This document shows positions 31,573-38,983 of a stretch of DNA of 64,000 nucleotides, piece by piece. Numbering within the stretch: the first letter of the stretch is position 1; the number at the start of each line of letters is the position of its first letter. The stretch is from Exiguobacterium alkaliphilum 12/1 (GTDB lineage: Bacteria; Bacillota; Bacilli; Exiguobacteriales; Exiguobacteriaceae): assembly GCF_000714435.1 (NCBI RefSeq), contig NZ_JJMW01000060.1, forward strand, positions 1 to 64,000, in the 5' to 3' direction. The notes below the pieces were generated by a model. That model was not told where the DNA came from. It was given only the letters and a program-made list of their open reading frames with translations, and did not search any database. A program made the position numbers and the translations under genes.

Positions 31573-32236
31573 CGTCTTCTCGCTTTTTGTGAAAGAGCGT
31601 CAAATCCGTCCGTTCTTCCATACGATTAACGTACGCGCCGATGACGTCCCGACCCCTGGCCTGTTCCTTGCGACCCACAGCTCGTTTTGGGACGGACTCA
31701 TCCTGCTCATGCTGAATCAGCATTACTTACGACATGACGTCCACGTCTTAATGGATGAGGAAGGCTTGCGACGCTTCCCGTTCTTTCGTCATCTCGGCGC
31801 GTTTTCGATTCAAAAAGGGAACTTGTCCGAAGTGCGGGCCTCGCTCGGCTATGCGTCCGACTTGCTCGAAGCAGGCAAGTCCGTCTGGGTGTTCCCACAA
31901 GGACGGGAGTACCCGCAAGAACATCGCCCGCTCGAGATTGGCACCGGGGCGACGATGCTCCTGACGAAACCCGATGTGCGGCTCTGCGCCATCTATTATG
32001 CGTTCGAGTCACATGCCGCACCGGTCGTGTACGTCCGGTTTCGGAACTATACGGTCGTCTCAGAAACGAGACGGCTCCAAAAGCGCGAGTTGGCAGAGGC
32101 GCTCGAGCGGCTCTATGACGACACGCGCGCCGATGTCATCGAACAATCGACGAACTATGTCCCCCTCTTCCCGCCAAAGCGGAGTCTCGCGGACTGGACC
32201 GAACACCTCTTGACATTCAGGAGGGGCGGCCGATGA
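31538..32236 (+). CDS. PlsC-type acyltransferase, probable carotenoid glycoside acyltransferase
   Basis: A 232-residue protein with the PlsC acyltransferase motifs: HSSFWD (HX4D, about 46-51), GAFSIQKG, and VFPQGRE in place of the usual FPEGTR. There is no membrane segment. In staphyloxanthin synthesis the last step is acylation of the sugar by CrtO, which is not homologous; this protein is the obvious functional replacement given its neighbours. GGAGGG lies nine bases upstream of the ATG within the preceding gene, and the end overlaps the glycosyltransferase start (ATGA). Confidence 0.85.
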   Translation: MIESNKKKWFNDVFSLFVKERQIRPFFHTINVRADDVPTPGLFLATHSSFWDGLILLMLNQHYLRHDVHVLMDEEGLRRFPFFRHLGAFSIQKGNLSEVRASLGYASDLLEAGKSVWVFPQGREYPQEHRPLEIGTGATMLLTKPDVRLCAIYYAFESHAAPVVYVRFRNYTVVSETRRLQKRELAEALERLYDDTRADVIEQSTNYVPLFPPKRSLADWTEHLLTFRRGGR

Positions 32237-33300
32237 TTCTATTCGCGCTGACGTTTTGTATGCTCGTCTTCACGCTCGTCAACCTGTTATTTTTACGACC
32301 GCTCACCAAGCCCGTCGCTTCTCCCCCGACGGCCGTCTGCATCCCACTCCGGAACGAGGAGCGGAACGTCCCGAAACTGATCGCCAGCTTAAAGGAAGCC
32401 GTTCCACGTGAGAGTCACGTCTATTTATTCGAAGACCGGTCCGACGACGGTACATACGCCGCGCTCGTCCAATCGATTGCGGACGACCCCCGCTTCACCA
32501 TCTTTCGTGGGGTGCCGCTCCCCGAAGGATGGGCAGGGAAGGTTCATGCCTGCCATCAGTTGGCGAGCCGGACGACGGAACCGTACCTCTTGTTCCTCGA
32601 CGCCGACGTGACCATCGACCCGACGTTCATCGACCGGCTACACGGGACACGTCTGCGTGAGGGAGTCGTCTTTTTGTCCGGCTTCCCTCGTTTCCCGACC
32701 CCGACATGGCTCGGAAAACTGCTCATCCCGATGCAACACGTCTTGATCGCCCAACACTTGCCGCTGTTTTGGCGAAAAGTCCGTCACCCCGCTTTCGCCG
32801 CAGCGAACGGGATGAACGTCCTCGTCGAACGGACGAGCTATGACGAGGTCGGTGGTCATGCCTCGATTCACAACTCTTTGATTGATGACATCGATTTATG
32901 CCGGGAGTTCAAACGGCGAAAAAAATTGACGTCGCTCGTACAAGTGTCGCCGTATATCACGTGTGACATGTATGCCACGAATGAAGAAGTATGGAACGGG
33001 TTTTCAAAAAACGTATTCAAGGGAATGAATGAATCAGTGGGCATCGCCCTTTATTTCTTTCTTTATTACGGCGTCCAAGCATCGGCGTTCGTCGCCCTAC
33101 TCGTCCGGCCCGACTGGTATTCGCTCGGAGCGGTCCTCTGCGTCCTACTCGCACGGCTCGCCATCGATTTGAAATCAGGGGGAAGACAGTTTTGGTTGCA
33201 TCCGTTCAGCCTCATCGCCTACTTGGCGTTGCTTGCGAGCGCGGTCATCCGTAAATGGAGACGACAACCGATCACTTGGAAAGGCCGCATGTACCCTTAG
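32233..33300 (+). CDS. Family 2 glycosyltransferase, CrtQ-like
   Basis: A 355-residue GT2 enzyme with an N-terminal membrane anchor (3-23), nucleotide-binding CIPLRNEERNV and DRSDDGT, the DxD motif FLDADVT, an acceptor-side segment IDDIDLCREFKRR, and two to three C-terminal membrane helices ending in WKGRMYP. The layout and the WKGR ending match CrtQ, which adds glucose to 4,4'-diaponeurosporenoate. I infer the same role, glycosylating the carboxylated carotenoid made by CrtP encoded next. Confidence 0.87.
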   Translation: MILFALTFCMLVFTLVNLLFLRPLTKPVASPPTAVCIPLRNEERNVPKLIASLKEAVPRESHVYLFEDRSDDGTYAALVQSIADDPRFTIFRGVPLPEGWAGKVHACHQLASRTTEPYLLFLDADVTIDPTFIDRLHGTRLREGVVFLSGFPRFPTPTWLGKLLIPMQHVLIAQHLPLFWRKVRHPAFAAANGMNVLVERTSYDEVGGHASIHNSLIDDIDLCREFKRRKKLTSLVQVSPYITCDMYATNEEVWNGFSKNVFKGMNESVGIALYFFLYYGVQASAFVALLVRPDWYSLGAVLCVLLARLAIDLKSGGRQFWLHPFSLIAYLALLASAVIRKWRRQPITWKGRMYP

Positions 33301-33323
33301 AAAACGTTAGGAGGCACATCGCC

Positions 33324-34790
33324 ATGAAACAAATTGCCATCATCGGGGCCGGTCTCGGCGGCTTGAGCGCCGCTGTCACCCTCGCCTCACGCGGTTACGA
33401 CGTCACCGTCATCGAGAAAAACGAGCACGTCGGCGGCAAGCTCATGCCCGTCATCACCGACGGCCATCGCTTTGACTTCGGTCCGAACACGATCACCATG
33501 CCGGACGTGTTCCGTTCCGTCATCCGTAACAGTGGGGCGAACCCGGAAGATTACTTCGAGCTCGTCAAACTCGATTTGCATACGGTCAACCACTTCACCG
33601 ACGGCTCGACGTTCACGTTCCGGTCCGGACGCGAGCAGATGGAAGAGGAAGTCCGACGCTTGACGGGCGGCAAGGCCGACCAAAACCAACTCGCCGACTA
33701 TTTGGACGAGGCGGAGAAACTGTTCGAGATCGCGAACAAGCGCTTCTTCACCCGGATGGAGACGAAAATGGACACCGGATTGTGGAGCGATATGATGAAA
33801 GTCCATCCGCTCACGAGCCTGCACGCGCTCCATAAGAAGTACTTCAAAGACCCGCGCATCATTCAAGCGCTCGACCGCTACGCGACATATATCGGCAGCA
33901 GCCCTTACGTCACACCGGGCACGTTCGCGCTCATCTCACACCTCGAATTGAATGACGGGGTGTATTACGCCAAAGGCGGAAACTGGACGATTGCCAAAGG
34001 CTTCGCCAAACGGGCCAGTGAACTCGGCGTCGAGTTCAAGCTCGGTCAAGAAGTGACGAAGATTGAAGTGATGAACGGCAAAGCCCACGCCGTCGTCATC
34101 GACGAGGAGGACGTGTTATCGTGCGACGCCGTCTTATTGAACGGCGAGTTGCTCACGCAGTACCCGCGTCTCGTCGATGCGATCCATCGCCCGTCGTTCC
34201 CGGTCCCGACACGTGATACGGTCGAACCGTCCGTCTCGGCATTCGTCGTCATGGTCGGATTGAACAAACGATTGAATCTTGCCCATCATAACGTCTACTT
34301 CTCTGACGACTATGAGGCCGAGTTCCGTGCCTTGTTCGAGGAAGAGCGCTATGCGGACGAGCCGACGATTTACATCTCGAACTCGTCCCATACGGACCCA
34401 TCGATGGGTGAAGCCGGGGACAACTTGTTCATCCTCGTCAACGCCCCGGCCCACTTGACCGATATCGATGCCGAGACGTATGAACACCTCATCCGTCGCC
34501 GCCTCCGTAAGTTCGGCGTCGAGTGGGACGACGCGGACGTCGTCTATCATCATCGCGTCACCCCGCATGACTTGACCCGAGACTTCTACGCTTATTACGG
34601 AGCGCTTTACGGCACGTCCGCCAACTCGAAGAAAGGCGCCTTCTTCCGCCCGTCAGCCCGGTCCGAAGACGTCTCGAACATCTGGTTCGCGGGCGGGTCG
34701 ACCCATCCGGGCGGGGGGAGCCCGATGGTCACGCTTTCAGGACAACTCGCCGCCCGCTCGATGTTAGAGGACATACCTCTGACAATTTGA
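33324..34790 (+). CDS. crtP: 4,4'-diaponeurosporene oxygenase-like protein (CrtP/CrtNb)
   Basis: A 488-residue FAD flavoprotein of the CrtI/CrtN family. The dinucleotide motif IAIIGAGLGGLSAAVTLA starts at residue 3, and the C-terminal FAD motif is VSNIWFAGGSTHPGGGSPMVTLSGQLAA. The central ALDRYATYIGSSPYVTPGTFALISHLELNDGVYYAKGG and the LAHHNVYFSDDY stretch match CrtP (oxidising terminal methyls to aldehyde or acid) more than CrtN. Start at 33324 with TAGGAGG upstream; the frame is open 69 bases further but without a ribosome binding site. Last gene of the + block; no terminator follows before the RNA-like region. Confidence 0.88.
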   Translation: MKQIAIIGAGLGGLSAAVTLASRGYDVTVIEKNEHVGGKLMPVITDGHRFDFGPNTITMPDVFRSVIRNSGANPEDYFELVKLDLHTVNHFTDGSTFTFRSGREQMEEEVRRLTGGKADQNQLADYLDEAEKLFEIANKRFFTRMETKMDTGLWSDMMKVHPLTSLHALHKKYFKDPRIIQALDRYATYIGSSPYVTPGTFALISHLELNDGVYYAKGGNWTIAKGFAKRASELGVEFKLGQEVTKIEVMNGKAHAVVIDEEDVLSCDAVLLNGELLTQYPRLVDAIHRPSFPVPTRDTVEPSVSAFVVMVGLNKRLNLAHHNVYFSDDYEAEFRALFEEERYADEPTIYISNSSHTDPSMGEAGDNLFILVNAPAHLTDIDAETYEHLIRRRLRKFGVEWDDADVVYHHRVTPHDLTRDFYAYYGALYGTSANSKKGAFFRPSARSEDVSNIWFAGGSTHPGGGSPMVTLSGQLAARSMLEDIPLTI

Positions 34791-34815
34791 ACATTTTGTG
34801 AACAGAAGATTCGAC

Positions 34816-34846
34816 ACTTGTCGACAAGTCTGAGACGTGATAATAT
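34816..34846 (+). promoter_or_regulatory. Promoter of the putative C-loop RNA, with palindrome
   Basis: TTGTCG (34818-34823), 17 bases, then TAATAT (34841-34846). The -35 hexamer is inside the perfect 14-bp palindrome ACTTGTCGACAAGT (34816-34829), a likely operator. TTCGACA at 34810-34816 equals the complement of the Bacillus Spo0A box core TGTCGAA, which may be chance. Confidence 0.55.
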
Positions 34847-34852
34847 CATATT

Positions 34853-35179
34853 CGAGTTCAAGCAGTATTGTAACGTTTGTTACACCTGTAGCGATCGAAT
34901 GGCTTCCCCGAGCCAATCGCGTTTTGAACTTGTCACACCCGAGAAAAAATGATGAGCGAGTTTCCCCACTCGTATGCCGTAGCTGGATCAGCATGCATCT
35001 GATGTTCCCCCTTAGTCCATCAAGCATCCTGTTTCAGCGAAGATGCCCCATCGTTTCATTCCCCATGAGACGAGGCACATCTTTAGGTGTTCATCACAAG
35101 CCGATTCGTTCGTTTCCCCGACGGACGGGTCACATAACGCTTACGCCACTTTTGGTCCCCCGCCAAAAGTGGTTTTTTT
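34853..35179 (+). ncRNA. Putative multi-hairpin small RNA with C-rich loops
   Basis: This 420-base gap between convergent carotenoid operons has no convincing gene but is dense in hairpins. By eye: 34869-34884 (TGTAAC/GTTACA), 34891-34920 (loop TCCCCG), 34957-34972 (loop TTCCCC), 35000-35022 (loop beginning TTCCCCC), 35042-35052 (CCCC), 35052-35072 (8-bp stem, loop TCCCC), 35107-35127 (7-bp stem, loop TTCCCCG), and the terminator 35146-35179 (10-bp stem, loop TCCCCCG, seven T). Seven C4-C5 tracts thus all fall in loops. Such loops in RsaE- and LhrC-type small RNAs pair with Shine-Dalgarno sequences. Family unknown to me; the 5' end is inferred from the promoter. It could instead be the 3' UTR of the crtP transcript. 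Confidence 0.6.
35146..35179 (+). terminator. Strong + strand terminator with C5 loop
   Basis: Perfect ten-base stem CCACTTTTGG / CCAAAAGTGG, loop TCCCCCG and seven T. It ends 355 bases after the crtP stop, so it belongs to the RNA-like region rather than directly to crtP. Confidence 0.93.
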
Positions 35180-35185
35180 GTGCGC

Positions 35186-35212
35186 AAAAAAAGCGGCCGC
35201 CTATGCGGTCGC
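35186..35212 (-). terminator. Terminator of crtM
   Basis: GCGACCGC / GCGGCCGC (one mismatch) with loop ATAG and seven U on the minus strand, abutting the crtM stop. Confidence 0.88.
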
Positions 35213-36052
35213 TCACAGTCGTGCCAATAGTTTTCCTTTTTGCAACGTCGAGACGTACGCGCGCTTGGTAAACACGTCATACGCGTTCCCCCTTGCCGCG
35301 TCTAAGATGCCTTCATAGAGGAGCGCTGCCGCCTGTACCGGTTTCCGGCTCGCCGGTGGGTAGAGGTGATGTGTTTCCCTCGCCCGGGTATATAAGAATT
35401 CAGCTCGACGGGCGAGCGTCTCCCAGACGTCCATGAACGCAGGTGTCACTTTCCGGGCGAACAAGTCCGCCTCCGAGACGCCGAACTCAGCGAGTAGCGT
35501 TTGCGGGAGATAAATCCGGTCCCTGCTCAAGTCTTCGCCGACGTCACGCAAGATGTTCGTCAACTGCATGGCGATGCCGAGATCGATTGCGCCTTGCCTC
35601 AGGCTCGCCTTCTCGGTCGCGTCCGGCTCTGGTACGAGAATCGGCAACAGCATTAAGCCGACCGTGCTGGCCGCATAATAGCTGTATTGTTCCGTCTCCT
35701 CGAGCGTCGCGTACCGTGACTTATGTAAATCCCATTTCATCCCTTCGGCCAACTCGAAGAAGGGCGCGACGTCCATGTCATAACGGCCCCACACATCACG
35801 GAGCGCGACCCAAAGAGCCCCTTCGACGTCTTCGTTCGCCAAAAAGCGATTAAAGTCATGCAAAAACTCCGTCAGGCTCGCTTCCGGTCGGTCGGATTCG
35901 TCGACGGCGTCGTCGAGCAGACGGCAAAACGTATAGACGGCCGCGACCGCCTGACGGTCCGGCTTGGAGAGCAAAGAGAAGGCCCGATAAAACGTCAACG
36001 AGCCTTTCTTCATGATTTCCTCACATTGACGATACGCTTCTTGTGTCGTCAT
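35213..36052 (-). CDS. crtM: Dehydrosqualene (squalene/phytoene) synthase CrtM
   Basis: A 279-residue all-helical isoprenoid synthase joining two farnesyl diphosphates head to head to dehydrosqualene (C30), the first carotenoid step. The first Asp-rich motif is RLLDDAVDE (D47, D48, D51) and the second MQLTNILRDVGEDLSRDRIYLP near residue 165-185. Family assignment to C30 rather than C40 synthase is inferred from the CrtN/CrtP partners. Its start lies 32 bases inside the crtN gene, so the two are translationally linked. Confidence 0.93.
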   Translation of the reverse strand: MTTQEAYRQCEEIMKKGSLTFYRAFSLLSKPDRQAVAAVYTFCRLLDDAVDESDRPEASLTEFLHDFNRFLANEDVEGALWVALRDVWGRYDMDVAPFFELAEGMKWDLHKSRYATLEETEQYSYYAASTVGLMLLPILVPEPDATEKASLRQGAIDLGIAMQLTNILRDVGEDLSRDRIYLPQTLLAEFGVSEADLFARKVTPAFMDVWETLARRAEFLYTRARETHHLYPPASRKPVQAAALLYEGILDAARGNAYDVFTKRAYVSTLQKGKLLARL

Positions 36053-37496
36053 AGAATGCCTCCATTTCTTCTTCCATTCTTTTCACGAGTAGTTCGGACC
36101 CAATCATCACGATCGGGACACCACCGCACGGGTGTACCGAGGCGCCGACGGCGAAGAGCCGTTCGATGTGCGCATATGGTCGGGCTTGCGGTTTGAACGC
36201 CGCCGACTGCGAGAGTTTCGGCGCGATGCCGAAGCTGCCGCCTTCAAAGAGACCGAATCGCTCCGCGTCCATCGGCGTCCGAAGTTTCATCTCGGTGACA
36301 CGCTCACTGAAGCCCGGTACGAGCGTCTCAAGCCGGCCGACGAGGTGATCGATCGTCCCGTTCGCCTCGAAATCAGAGCGCTCGAGCTTTCGCGGCACCG
36401 GTACGAGGACGTAGAGCACACTTGTGCCTTCGGGTGCGAGCGTTCGGTCGACCCGGGACGGATTGAACGTGTACATCGCCGGGTACTCGCTCAGTTTACC
36501 ATCTTCAAAGATGGTTCGCATCGATCCGGCAAAATCGTTCGGCAAGTCAAACTGATGCACCGGCAACTCAATCTCACCGTTGACGGTGAAGTACAAGAGA
36601 AGCGTCGCGCTCGATGGCTCGTATGCTTTCGGTTTGACGCCATCGATGAGTCGCTCCATGAGCGGGAAGTCCCCGTTCACGACGACCGCATCGTGCGGAT
36701 GGGTGACGCCGTCGACGACGACGGCGTTCGCCCGTCCGTTCTCGACACGAACACGTTCGACACGCGCGTTCAGGTTGAACTGAACACCGCGACGTCTCAG
36801 CTCTTGTTCTAGTTTCGTCGCGAGTGAGAAATATCCTCCTTTGACGTACCAGACCCCTTCTTCTTGCTCACGGTATGGGATGAGACCGTAAAGCGACGGC
36901 GTCGCATACGGGTTACCGCCGATATAGAGCGTCTGCAGACTATAGGCGACGCGCAGACGCTCGTCTTTGAAGAATCGTTTCATGTTCTCATGTGCCGTCT
37001 CATACGCCTTCAGGCGCATGAGGAGGAGCAACAGCTTCGGTTCGAACAAATCCGACTTTGCTTTATAGCCACGGTCTAAGAACGACTCAAAGCCGATTTG
37101 ATACTCGTCGCGCTTTTGGGTCATATACCCGCGGAAAGCATCCCCTTCCCCGAACATGCGCTCCACTTCTTCCGCTTGCCGCTCGATGTCGCGGTACTTG
37201 TAGAACGCCGTCCCGTCTTCATAACGGAGGCGATAGAGCGGGTCGATTTCGAGCAGCTCAACTTCCGTCTCGGGAAGACCCGCCTGTTTCAATTGCTGTT
37301 TCAGTTTCGACGGCAACAACACGATCGTCGGGCCTTCATCGACACGGGCGCCGTTGTCGAACTCGACATAGTTGAGACGTCCACCGACGCGCGCTTCCTT
37401 CTCATAAATCGTGACCTGCAACGATGGGTATTTATGCGTCAATAAGAGCGCCGCATACAAAGAGCCGATTCCGGCCCCGACGAATCCGATGTTCAT
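36021..37496 (-). CDS. crtN: Diapophytoene desaturase CrtN
   Basis: A 491-residue FAD-dependent desaturase. The N-terminal motif is IGFVGAGIGSLYAALLLT with YEKEARVGGR, and the C-terminal FAD segment LFAVGASVHPCGGVPIVMIGSELL. The central SLQTLYIGGNPYATPSLYGLIPYREQEEGVWYVKGG and the FGIAPKLSQSAAFKPQ stretch match CrtN of Staphylococcus, which desaturates dehydrosqualene. The second glycine of the usual GxGxxG is present but the following Gly is Ser (GIGSL). It overlaps crtM and starts four bases inside the preceding CrtN-like gene. Confidence 0.9.
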   Translation of the reverse strand: MNIGFVGAGIGSLYAALLLTHKYPSLQVTIYEKEARVGGRLNYVEFDNGARVDEGPTIVLLPSKLKQQLKQAGLPETEVELLEIDPLYRLRYEDGTAFYKYRDIERQAEEVERMFGEGDAFRGYMTQKRDEYQIGFESFLDRGYKAKSDLFEPKLLLLLMRLKAYETAHENMKRFFKDERLRVAYSLQTLYIGGNPYATPSLYGLIPYREQEEGVWYVKGGYFSLATKLEQELRRRGVQFNLNARVERVRVENGRANAVVVDGVTHPHDAVVVNGDFPLMERLIDGVKPKAYEPSSATLLLYFTVNGEIELPVHQFDLPNDFAGSMRTIFEDGKLSEYPAMYTFNPSRVDRTLAPEGTSVLYVLVPVPRKLERSDFEANGTIDHLVGRLETLVPGFSERVTEMKLRTPMDAERFGLFEGGSFGIAPKLSQSAAFKPQARPYAHIERLFAVGASVHPCGGVPIVMIGSELLVKRMEEEMEAFYDDTRSVSSM

Positions 37497-38983
37497 TGGC
37501 CGACACCTGCCCGGTCGCGAAGCAAGTTCGTCGTGATGCGAGCCGATTCGAAGATGGTCGGCAGTCCGCTGCCCGGATGGGTGCCGCCGCCGACGAGCCA
37601 GACGTGGTCGAGTTCTTCAAACTGGTTGTGCGGACGGAAGTACATCATCTGTGACAAGTTATGGCCCAGATTGAACGTCGCCCCTTCATAGACGCCGAAC
37701 GCCTCCCAGTCTTTCGGGGTGAGCGCTTGTTTCACTTCGATGTGGTCCCGGATGTCTTTATACGGGGAACGCGTCTCGAGCGCGTCGAGGACTCGTTCGG
37801 TCATCTTCGGCTCGAGCGTCTCCCACGGCAAATTCGATAAGTTGTTCGGTACCGGGACGAGCACGTAGAGTGAGGACTTGCCGGCTGGCGCGAGCGTCGG
37901 GTCGATCTTCGAGGCGTTTTGCACGTAGAACGAGAAGTCGTCGCTCAACTTCAAGTCTTTTGTCATCTCTTTGACGTTTTGCTCGTAATCGTCAGCGAAA
38001 TGAATCGTATGGTGGCCGACGTCATACAAGCGGTCGAGCCCGAGATAGAGCATGAACGTTGAGCACGAGTAGCGTTTCTTCTGCAACTGCTCGGGGCTCC
38101 AACGCGATAACGTGCCGTTCGGGACGAGCGATGTCATCGCGTGGGCGAAGTCGGCCCCGATAATCACTTCATCAAACGAGTAGTGGACGTTGTTCGCGAC
38201 GAGCCCGTTCACACTCTTCCCATCGAGCAACAACCGGTCGACCCCTTCACCGAGACGAATCGACCCGCCTTCTTCCTCGATGACGCGCGCCATCGCCGTA
38301 CATAACTGGTTCACGCCGCCAATCGGATGATGGACGCCGTATGCGTGTTCCATATAGGACAAAATCGAGAATCCGCCCGGACATTCCCAAGCCGACATGC
38401 CGAGATATTTCGCTTGGAATGTGAACGCATATTTCAGCTCTTCGCTCGTGAAGTATTCCGATAACACGTCATAGAGCGATTTACCGATCGAGAGGAACGG
38501 CAACGCCTTCAAGACACGAAGCGACACGTAATCGGTCAAACTGTCGTGCGCCGTCTGAAGCACCGGCATCAGCTTCGACAGCTTGATCGCTTGCTCCGAC
38601 ATGAATCGCTCATACCCTTCCCCGTTGCCCGGGAACTGTGCCTCAATCGCCTCGAACATCTCGTCACGGTCCGTCGTCATCGACAAGACGCGACGGCCAC
38701 GGTCGAAGTATAGATCGTACATCGGCTCGAGCCGTTTCATCTCGACGTAATCGTGCAAGTTCCGTCCCGTCTCTTCAAAAATCTCTTCTAGAATATATGG
38801 CATATTCAAAAAAGTCGGGCCACGATCGAACGCGAACTCCCCGACTTGTAGACGTGACGTCCGTCCACCGACGAACGGCTGTTTCTCGAACACGGTGACA
38901 GAGACGCCACGGCTCGCCAAAATCATGGCTGCGGCGAGCCCTCCTGGTCCGGCACCGATGACTGCAACTCTTTTTTCCGACAC
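37493..38983 (-). CDS. Second CrtN-like carotenoid desaturase/oxygenase
   Basis: A 496-residue member of the same FAD amine-oxidase/CrtI family: VAVIGAGPGGLAAAMILASRG with FEKQPFVGGR at the N-terminus and HVWLVGGGTHPGSGLPTIFESARI at the end. The middle (AFTFQAKYLGMSAWECPGGFSILSYMEHAYGVHHPIGG) differs from both CrtN and CrtP here. It may extend desaturation or oxidise the other end. Start is the GTG at 38983, with AGGGAG nine bases upstream; a TTG three codons earlier would leave no spacer. First gene of the minus block behind a consensus promoter. Confidence 0.85.
   Translation of the reverse strand: MSEKRVAVIGAGPGGLAAAMILASRGVSVTVFEKQPFVGGRTSRLQVGEFAFDRGPTFLNMPYILEEIFEETGRNLHDYVEMKRLEPMYDLYFDRGRRVLSMTTDRDEMFEAIEAQFPGNGEGYERFMSEQAIKLSKLMPVLQTAHDSLTDYVSLRVLKALPFLSIGKSLYDVLSEYFTSEELKYAFTFQAKYLGMSAWECPGGFSILSYMEHAYGVHHPIGGVNQLCTAMARVIEEEGGSIRLGEGVDRLLLDGKSVNGLVANNVHYSFDEVIIGADFAHAMTSLVPNGTLSRWSPEQLQKKRYSCSTFMLYLGLDRLYDVGHHTIHFADDYEQNVKEMTKDLKLSDDFSFYVQNASKIDPTLAPAGKSSLYVLVPVPNNLSNLPWETLEPKMTERVLDALETRSPYKDIRDHIEVKQALTPKDWEAFGVYEGATFNLGHNLSQMMYFRPHNQFEELDHVWLVGGGTHPGSGLPTIFESARITTNLLRDRAGVGQ

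Follow-up and report, generated by a model that had tools for sequence, protein, structure and literature searches.

Several described small RNAs carry C-rich regions that are directed at Shine-Dalgarno (SD) sites. RNAIII of Staphylococcus aureus is a long multi-hairpin RNA with C-rich loops covering SD sites, and the LhrC family of Listeria consists of short multicopy RNAs with several C-rich SD-pairing motifs each. FsrA of Bacillus subtilis, which is iron-controlled, and IsrR of S. aureus have few C-rich regions. Another such RNA is the redox-responsive RsaE/RoxS, and an oligopeptidase F neighbour serves as a marker of roxS. According to the passages cited here, a conserved stretch of 8 nt near -65 points to activation of B. 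subtilis RoxS by ResD, the targets of RoxS include sucCD (PMC4409812), and it is reported to reduce sucC, sucD, citZ-icd-mdh, sdhAB and pyc (PMC10433868). Among the targets given for FsrA are sdhC, qcrB, resABC and citB (PMC8216469). None of the open-access main texts searched mentions both Exiguobacterium and RsaE. Among the papers listed on Exiguobacterium and small RNAs, one is centred on the genus by its title; predicted sRNAs are counted per genome in it, and the word carotenoid is absent (PMC10837837).

Locus, promoter and terminator

The window, i.e. the whole stretch of 64,000 nucleotides of Exiguobacterium alkaliphilum 12/1 DNA that was analysed, contains a predicted small RNA with multiple C-loops. 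It is flanked by a desaturase-like gene, whose carotenoid role we presume from context, and by a convergent phytoene synthase-like gene (Table 1). For comparison we used 19 genomes of clade 1, the genus group of the window, and 19 genomes of its sister group, clade 2. The promoter-like TTGTCG-17-TAATAT proposed in the sequence-only reading is present and is matched in clade 2 by TTGTAC-17-TACGAT; our promoter scan favoured another, overlapping pair, TCGACA-17-TATCAT. A start of the RNA at about 34854 is probable. The terminator, described in the same reading as excellent, does consist of a 12-bp stem followed by a U-run on the + strand.

Table 1. Features of the multi-C-loop RNA locus, in window coordinates
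Feature	Coordinates	Strand	Remarks
Carotenoid desaturase-like gene (presumed role), upstream	33255..34790	+	Amino_oxidase family PF01593
Putative ResD-type operator TGAACATTTTGTGA	34788..34801	+	about -66 to -53 relative to the predicted start of the RNA
-35 element TTGTCG	34818..34823	+	read in the sequence; clade-2 counterpart TTGTAC
-10 element TAATAT	34841..34846	+	17-bp spacer; clade-2 counterpart TACGAT
Multi-C-loop small RNA	34854..35180	+	start and end predicted; about 326 nt
5' domain, closed by GAGUUCAAG...UUGAACUU	34854..34933	+	portion modelled as R1
Hairpin H1, loop UCCCCG (tract 1)	34900..34915	+	CUUCCCCGAG kept in 38/38 genomes
Hairpin H2, loop UUCCCC (tract 2)	34956..34973	+	8/8 positions changed on both sides
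Hairpin H3, loop GUUCCCCCUUAG (tract 3)	35000..35022	+	loop kept in 38/38 genomes
C-tract 4	35046..35049	+	P(unpaired) 0.50; CCCC in 12/19 clade-1 genomes
Hairpin H5, loop UCCCC (tract 5)	35052..35072	+	CCCC kept in 37/38 genomes
Hairpin H6, loop UCCCC (tract 6)	35103..35131	+	CCCC kept in 38/38 genomes
Terminator hairpin H7, loop UCCCCCG (tract 7), U-run	35146..35179	+	CCCC kept in 38/38 genomes
Phytoene synthase-like gene (crtB), convergent	35213..36052	-	SQS_PSY PF00494; present in 38/38 genomes

Distribution of the RNA

The RNA was present in all 38 Exiguobacteriaceae genomes, always at the same carotenoid-gene location. A DNA search of 61 genomes recovered the region in 19/19 clade-1 genomes, its own included, with non-self identities of 86-97%; of the 18 clade-2 genomes sampled at that stage, one had a syntenic copy. 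With crtB as landmark, the RNA was found in all 19 clade-2 genomes. The clade-2 copies carry the promoter, the 5' end GAGTTCAAG, the C-loops and the terminator. Clade-2 DNA matches L027-L030 were left out as homologues because L027, the one that was read, resembles coding sequence. A pattern with 20 specified bases retrieved 24 loci from 84,980 species searched, all of them in Exiguobacterium. Model R1, which is mainly a sequence model because it was built with the H1 stem only (5 pairs), matched 27 of 299 genomes of the class; all 27 are Exiguobacteriaceae with a single match each. The other 272 genomes of the class sample (20 listed as other families, 252 without a listing) gave no match to R1 under strict filters, by which weak matches are lost.

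Two observations concern individual assemblies. Clade-1 genome G002 carries a transposase-like gene, presumably IS30-like, between the RNA terminator and crtB (L041:410-1438), with the RNA intact. In assembly G000 the contig pairs C14/C35 and C25/C70 share match coordinates that are identical or shifted by one base, which suggests duplicated contigs in this assembly (listed contamination 7.58%).

Fold, C-loops and covariation

The + strand fold has a z-score of -6.4 against dinucleotide shuffles, with 0/100 shuffles equally good. All seven C-tracts that had been pointed out (34906-34909, 34964-34967, 35007-35011, 35046-35049, 35061-35064, 35116-35119 and 35157-35161) are present, and their mean probabilities of being unpaired are 0.99, 1.00, 0.86, 0.50, 1.00, 1.00 and 0.99 for tracts 1 to 7. 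Five of the seven lie wholly inside hairpin loops when the 326-nt RNA adopts its minimum-energy fold, and 300 dinucleotide shuffles contained at most six C-tracts each, with at most two in hairpin loops. The sequence-only reading had placed every tract in a hairpin loop and seen a multivalent regulator with seven loops. The C-loops as such are borne out, and six of them are firm; tract 4 cannot be counted as a firm loop with its intermediate pairing probability, and since it is half paired and poorly conserved the number is reduced from seven to six.

Within clade 1, tracts 1, 2, 3, 5, 6 and 7 are intact in 19, 19, 19, 18, 19 and 19 of the 19 genomes, respectively, and across all 38 genomes the stems diverge and the loops are almost invariant. 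The H2 loop of clade 2 is ACCCA, with CCCCA in one genome, and clade 2 has no counterpart of tract 4 and a different C-tract in the 5' domain (UUGACCCCACAU). The window segment 34854-34905 varies by clade, with mostly a TGTAACGTTTGTTACA-type hairpin in clade 1 and the C-tract TTGACCCCACAT at this place in clade 2.

Covariation was counted hairpin by hairpin on distinct rows only. Paired cells amounted to 53/66 in H1 (2 positions changed on both sides), 113/136 in H2 (8 positions), 13/15 in H3 (1 position), 93/96 in H5 (6/6 positions), 122/128 in H6 (6/8 positions) and 28/28 in H7 (5/7 positions). When one arm was shifted by one base as a control, paired cells fell to 34, 51, 2, 23, 49 and 16 in the same order of hairpins, and permutation of the right arms among rows gave maxima of 53, 106, 13, 76, 112 and 28. 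The observed values for H2, H5 and H6 clearly exceed these maxima; H1, H3 and H7, with little variation or few distinct rows, merely equal them. Stems changed on both sides around fixed C-loops are the pattern that had been named beforehand as supporting a conserved RNA.

Coding potential and strand

In the window genome + strand frames of 144 and 91 amino acids span the region, the longer one (GTG start, 34837-35271) being open across the RNA. This 144-aa frame is open in just 1/19 clade-1 genomes and another + frame in 4/19; no + frame is open across the RNA in any of the 19 clade-2 genomes and no - frame in any of the 38 genomes. RNA length varies without regard to modulo 3. A protein-coding or dual-function RNA was ruled out by the absence of a conserved reading frame, in agreement with the earlier statement that the region holds no credible gene.

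Five of the hairpins (H1, H3, H5, H6 and H7) as well as the clade-1 H2 present GGA in their loops when read on the - strand, and csrA was found in both genomes tested. It might therefore be asked whether the functional RNA lies on the - strand, with its GGGGA loops as GGA-in-loop sites titrating CsrA in the manner of CsrB/RsmZ, all the more as the fold of this strand, too, is better than those of its shuffles (z = -3.5, 0/100 equally good). However, the z-score of the + strand is better and is accompanied by a conserved promoter, operator and terminator, and neither of the two promoter-like sites found in a scan of 34500-35500 drives the - strand across the region. Pairs common to both strand folds contain 22 G-U cells in 14 pairs versus six A-C cells in four; G-U cells pair on the + strand only and A-C cells on the - strand only, so that these counts favour the + strand. 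Moreover, the clade-2 H2 loops, mostly ACCCA, give no GGA on the - strand, and conservation of the H3 loop extends over 12 nt, well past GGA. We consider CsrA titration from the - strand extremely improbable and regard the + strand, with its C-loops, as the one probably transcribed.

RoxS in the same genome and the shared operator

Of the 61 genomes searched, 37 are Exiguobacteriaceae, and in four of these the RsaE/RoxS model gave sub-threshold matches (35.6-39 bits; the cut-off is 79). From the sequences read at three of these loci (L111:1500-1640, and about 1500-1640 on L110 and L113) it is plausible that they encode a divergent RoxS of Exiguobacterium. The RoxS-like RNA sits downstream of an oligopeptidase F gene, the family of which was verified for the genome of the window. 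By DNA search roxS was found in 19/19 clade-1 genomes and in 0/19 clade-2 genomes, yet the clade-2 genome G033 is among the four model matches. Clade-1 RoxS-like copies have additional C-loop hairpins and a C-loop terminator. Rfam family RF01820, applied at its cut-off, overlooks the RoxS of Exiguobacterium. Because a separate roxS locus was found, the multi-C-loop RNA is distinct from RoxS, and clade 1 and G033, at least, have both. A RoxS sponge like RosA was considered and rejected, since RosA is described as G-rich (PMC8216469) and the multi-C-loop RNA is C-rich.

The exact sequence TGAACRTTWTGTGA occurs at two sites in the 3,100,610-base genome, one upstream of the multi-C-loop RNA and one upstream of roxS, at about -64 to -51; the pattern was derived from both sites, and the finding is therefore one of similarity and rarity and not an independent match. 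Five further sites in the genome have one mismatch. The one-mismatch site L211 was discarded, as it resembles coding sequence. Upstream of the multi-C-loop RNA, TGAACRTTWTGTGA is exact in 37/38 genomes and has one mismatch in the remaining one (G028). Twenty roxS copies were read, of which 12 have the exact sequence and seven have TGAACAATATGTGA (one mismatch); the clade-2 copy in G033 has neither TGAACRTTWTGTGA nor TGAACAATATGTGA. The genome encodes a resABC-like cluster with genes for ResB (PF05140), a thioredoxin-like protein, cytochrome c assembly, a response regulator and a histidine kinase, arranged as in resABCDE. The names ResD and ResE rest on this gene order, because NCBIfam named neither. 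The putative operator is most likely bound by ResD.

Predicted targets

When the RNA was compared with its own genome at the DNA level, the best match other than itself was antisense to the sucC leader (a weak BLAST match, E = 0.63). In 19/19 clade-1 genomes GGACTAAGGGGGAA of this leader can form 14 uninterrupted pairs with the H3 loop; in clade 2 the sucC SD can form 9 pairs only (19/19 genomes). The sucD SD can form 10 pairs with the invariant H3 loop in clade 1 and 9 in clade 2 (38/38 genomes), and the H6 loop can pair with sucD too (-21.8). Covariation of the latter pairing was looked for in the genome set, and changes flanking the H6 loop had no mirror in the sucD SD. Two tandem G-runs, AAAGGGG and TAAGGGGGA, lie in the sucC leader (L002:1496-1516). 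The former matches the CCCCUUU of RoxS and the latter the H3 loop, an arrangement that might let the two RNAs bind next to each other.

Duplex energies were calculated for 455 leaders, 396 on one contig and 59 in the window, with gene starts from a simple ORF caller. The lowest energy belongs to sucC (-29.0), followed by ribF (-25.9); sucD is tenth (-21.8), and qcrA (-20.4), qcrB (-19.0) and fumC (-18.8) are among the best 45. The third- and fifth-best duplexes involve genes without an evident link to respiration. Among the 396 contig genes the longest match to the invariant H3 loop is shared by sucC and ribF. The leader of ribF, which encodes FAD synthetase/riboflavin kinase, carries CTAAGGGGGAA at L153:13380-13402 (C19:153380-153402). 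Of the targets proposed earlier within the window, nitroreductase and globin do have G-rich SDs, but they rank lower.

The ranking also bears on whether the RNA acts mainly on the adjoining carotenoid genes, either in cis or as a 3' UTR extension. Two genes of the neighbourhood are within the best 45 leaders (32233-33300, -20.5; 37493-38926, -19.4), which would fit such a role together with the constant position between convergent carotenoid genes in 38/38 genomes (in G002 with the insertion behind the terminator). Both leaders rank far under sucC, however, and the RNA has a conserved promoter, operator and terminator of its own, with the loop sequence as its most conserved part. Action on the carotenoid genes as the main function is very unlikely in our view, and we favour action in trans on SD sites.

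SD types were compared in 234 orthologue pairs between the contig, picked because sucC lies there, and genome G024, covering about 400 kb of each of the two genomes. GGGGA was the SD in both species in 17/234 pairs versus 5.5 expected, and GGAGG in 42 versus 24.4 expected; SD type is thus conserved generally, because GGAGG is also retained beyond expectation. A GGGGA SD in both species was found for 7/14 TCA/respiration genes versus 10/220 others (p = 7.3e-6), where the 14 genes were labelled from N-termini after the conserved G-rich genes had already been listed, and the comparison ran through four motifs in three modes. The difference persisted when sucC and sucD were omitted (5/12, p = 3.4e-4), and GGAGG showed the opposite trend (0/14 versus 42/220). 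Family searches support 13/14 of the labels, that of ctaB only at a broad superfamily level; the qcrA fragment had no family match and was named by its position before qcrB. Six TCA genes from other parts of the genome (citZ, icd, mdh and sdhCAB) were picked by family or position with their SDs unseen. Five of these, citZ, icd, mdh, sdhC and sdhA, carry GGGGA SDs in both species, whereas sdhB has GGGG in one species only. Their duplex ranks are 0.9% (citZ), 13% (icd), 20% (mdh), 0.4% (sdhC), 26% (sdhA) and 59% (sdhB) in clade 1 and 27, 23, 18, 15, 33 and 92% in clade 2. G-rich SDs in both species were also seen for other genes, among them what we take to be thyA, ndk, ftsZ and pyrF.

Duplex energy separates the 14 TCA/respiration genes moderately, with an AUC of 0.73 in clade 1 and 0.74 in clade 2. 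Letter-shuffled loops reached at most 0.67 and 0.70, RoxS loops 0.66, and 16S anti-SD strength, scored with a segment that we assume to be the correct one, 0.62. Poor duplexes were obtained for ctaA, ctaE, ctaG, sdhA and sdhB; icd and mdh are middling (ranks 13-23%). RoxS alone could be the cause of the SD pattern. Such a moderate separation leaves some room for a C-loop RNA with another main role, as in protein binding or RNA titration, in which SD complementarity is a by-product, given that C4-C5 loops match some SDs anyway and 79/396 SDs on the contig include GGGG. We hold this to be unlikely, as sucC ranks first of all leaders scored and shares the longest invariant-loop match with ribF, its match is retained in 38/38 genomes, and the GGGGA enrichment is specific to TCA/respiration genes, among which GGAGG is depleted. 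The anti-SD interpretation put forward in the sequence-only reading thereby gains support from the sucC/sucD complementarity in 38/38 genomes and from the SD enrichment, and TCA-cycle and respiratory genes are the best-supported predicted targets.

Proposed function

Taken together, the structure, covariation, fixed loops, promoter, terminator, shared operator and target complementarity seen in the sequences make it rather likely that the locus encodes a ResD-controlled, trans-acting anti-SD RNA which, beside RoxS, represses the TCA cycle and the respiratory chain. Transcription, ResD binding, repression and multivalent action are the steps that we infer. The product, a small RNA of about 326 nt acting in trans, would be made from its own sigma-A type promoter and end at its own terminator. 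ResD would bind the roxS-like control site under low oxygen or in the presence of nitric oxide, and faltering respiration would in this way lead to induction of the multi-C-loop RNA together with RoxS. The stable chain of hairpins would expose six C-loops with UUCCCC or UCCCCCUUA single-stranded. Pairing would be started by the H3 loop at GGGGGA SDs, chiefly those of sucC and sucD, and the other loops would pair with the remaining G-rich SDs, probably those of citZ, icd, mdh, sdhC, fumC, qcrA and ctaD. Loop-SD pairing would block ribosome entry, and the output of the TCA cycle and the respiratory chain would fall, with the multi-C-loop RNA and the RoxS of its genome acting in parallel.

A more speculative extension, which we put forward only tentatively and consider rather doubtful, is that the GGGGGA SD serves in Exiguobacterium as a shared address of TCA and respiratory genes, read by two ResD-induced RNAs, RoxS and the multivalent RNA with six loops. 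Several cistrons, e.g. sucC and sucD on one mRNA, could be held by this RNA simultaneously, giving a graded shut-off of the whole pathway. An RNA that is unrelated to RoxS but has apparently the same operator and predicted targets that overlap, and that is fixed across the genus, would show how a redox regulon acquires a parallel RNA arm. The multi-C-loop RNA would also show whether many like C-loops act additively. SD variants as regulatory addresses are directly testable here, because the target SDs look coordinated.

Comparison with known RNA families

At the gathering score no Rfam family matches the region, and RF01820 has no match anywhere in the window, consistent with the earlier impression that the RNA belongs to no named family. 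A lax Rfam scan of 34780-35215 returned 10 matches up to E = 10, all far under their gathering scores, and RF01820 was absent from them. Single-stranded C-tracts in a conserved structured RNA are a feature of the C-rich anti-SD class, and the multi-C-loop RNA has them. With FsrA and IsrR it shares C-rich regions; IsrR, however, is described as iron-controlled, and the multi-C-loop RNA has a roxS-like operator. Like LhrC, it offers multiple C-rich motifs per RNA for SD pairing, but it does not match that family in Rfam and is a single long RNA in single copy instead of a short multicopy one. RNAIII resembles it as a long RNA with many hairpins and C-rich loops directed at SD sites; the differences are the lack of an Rfam match, another control, no conserved reading frame, and predicted targets in metabolism rather than virulence. 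CsrB/RsmZ differ in that GGA hairpin loops would require the - strand, while G-U excess and promoter scan support the + strand as transcribed.

The RNA also resembles RsaE/RoxS (RF01820), for which C-rich regions aimed at SD sites as well as sucCD and TCA targets are described in the passages cited (PMC4409812, PMC10433868), together with a ResD-type site near -65 (PMC4409812) that has its putative counterpart at -66 to -53 here. It nevertheless differs from RsaE/RoxS: there is no sequence match, and a separate RoxS exists in the same genome. Its length is roughly threefold that of the 112-position model, its six firm C-loops are each set in a hairpin of their own, and it lies between carotenoid genes, whereas the roxS-like RNA follows the oligopeptidase F gene. 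Most likely, then, its mode of action is like that of RsaE/RoxS without membership in this family, and the RNA appears from its sequence to be a C-rich anti-SD RNA that has unusually many loops, occurs throughout the genus and has its operator in common with RoxS.
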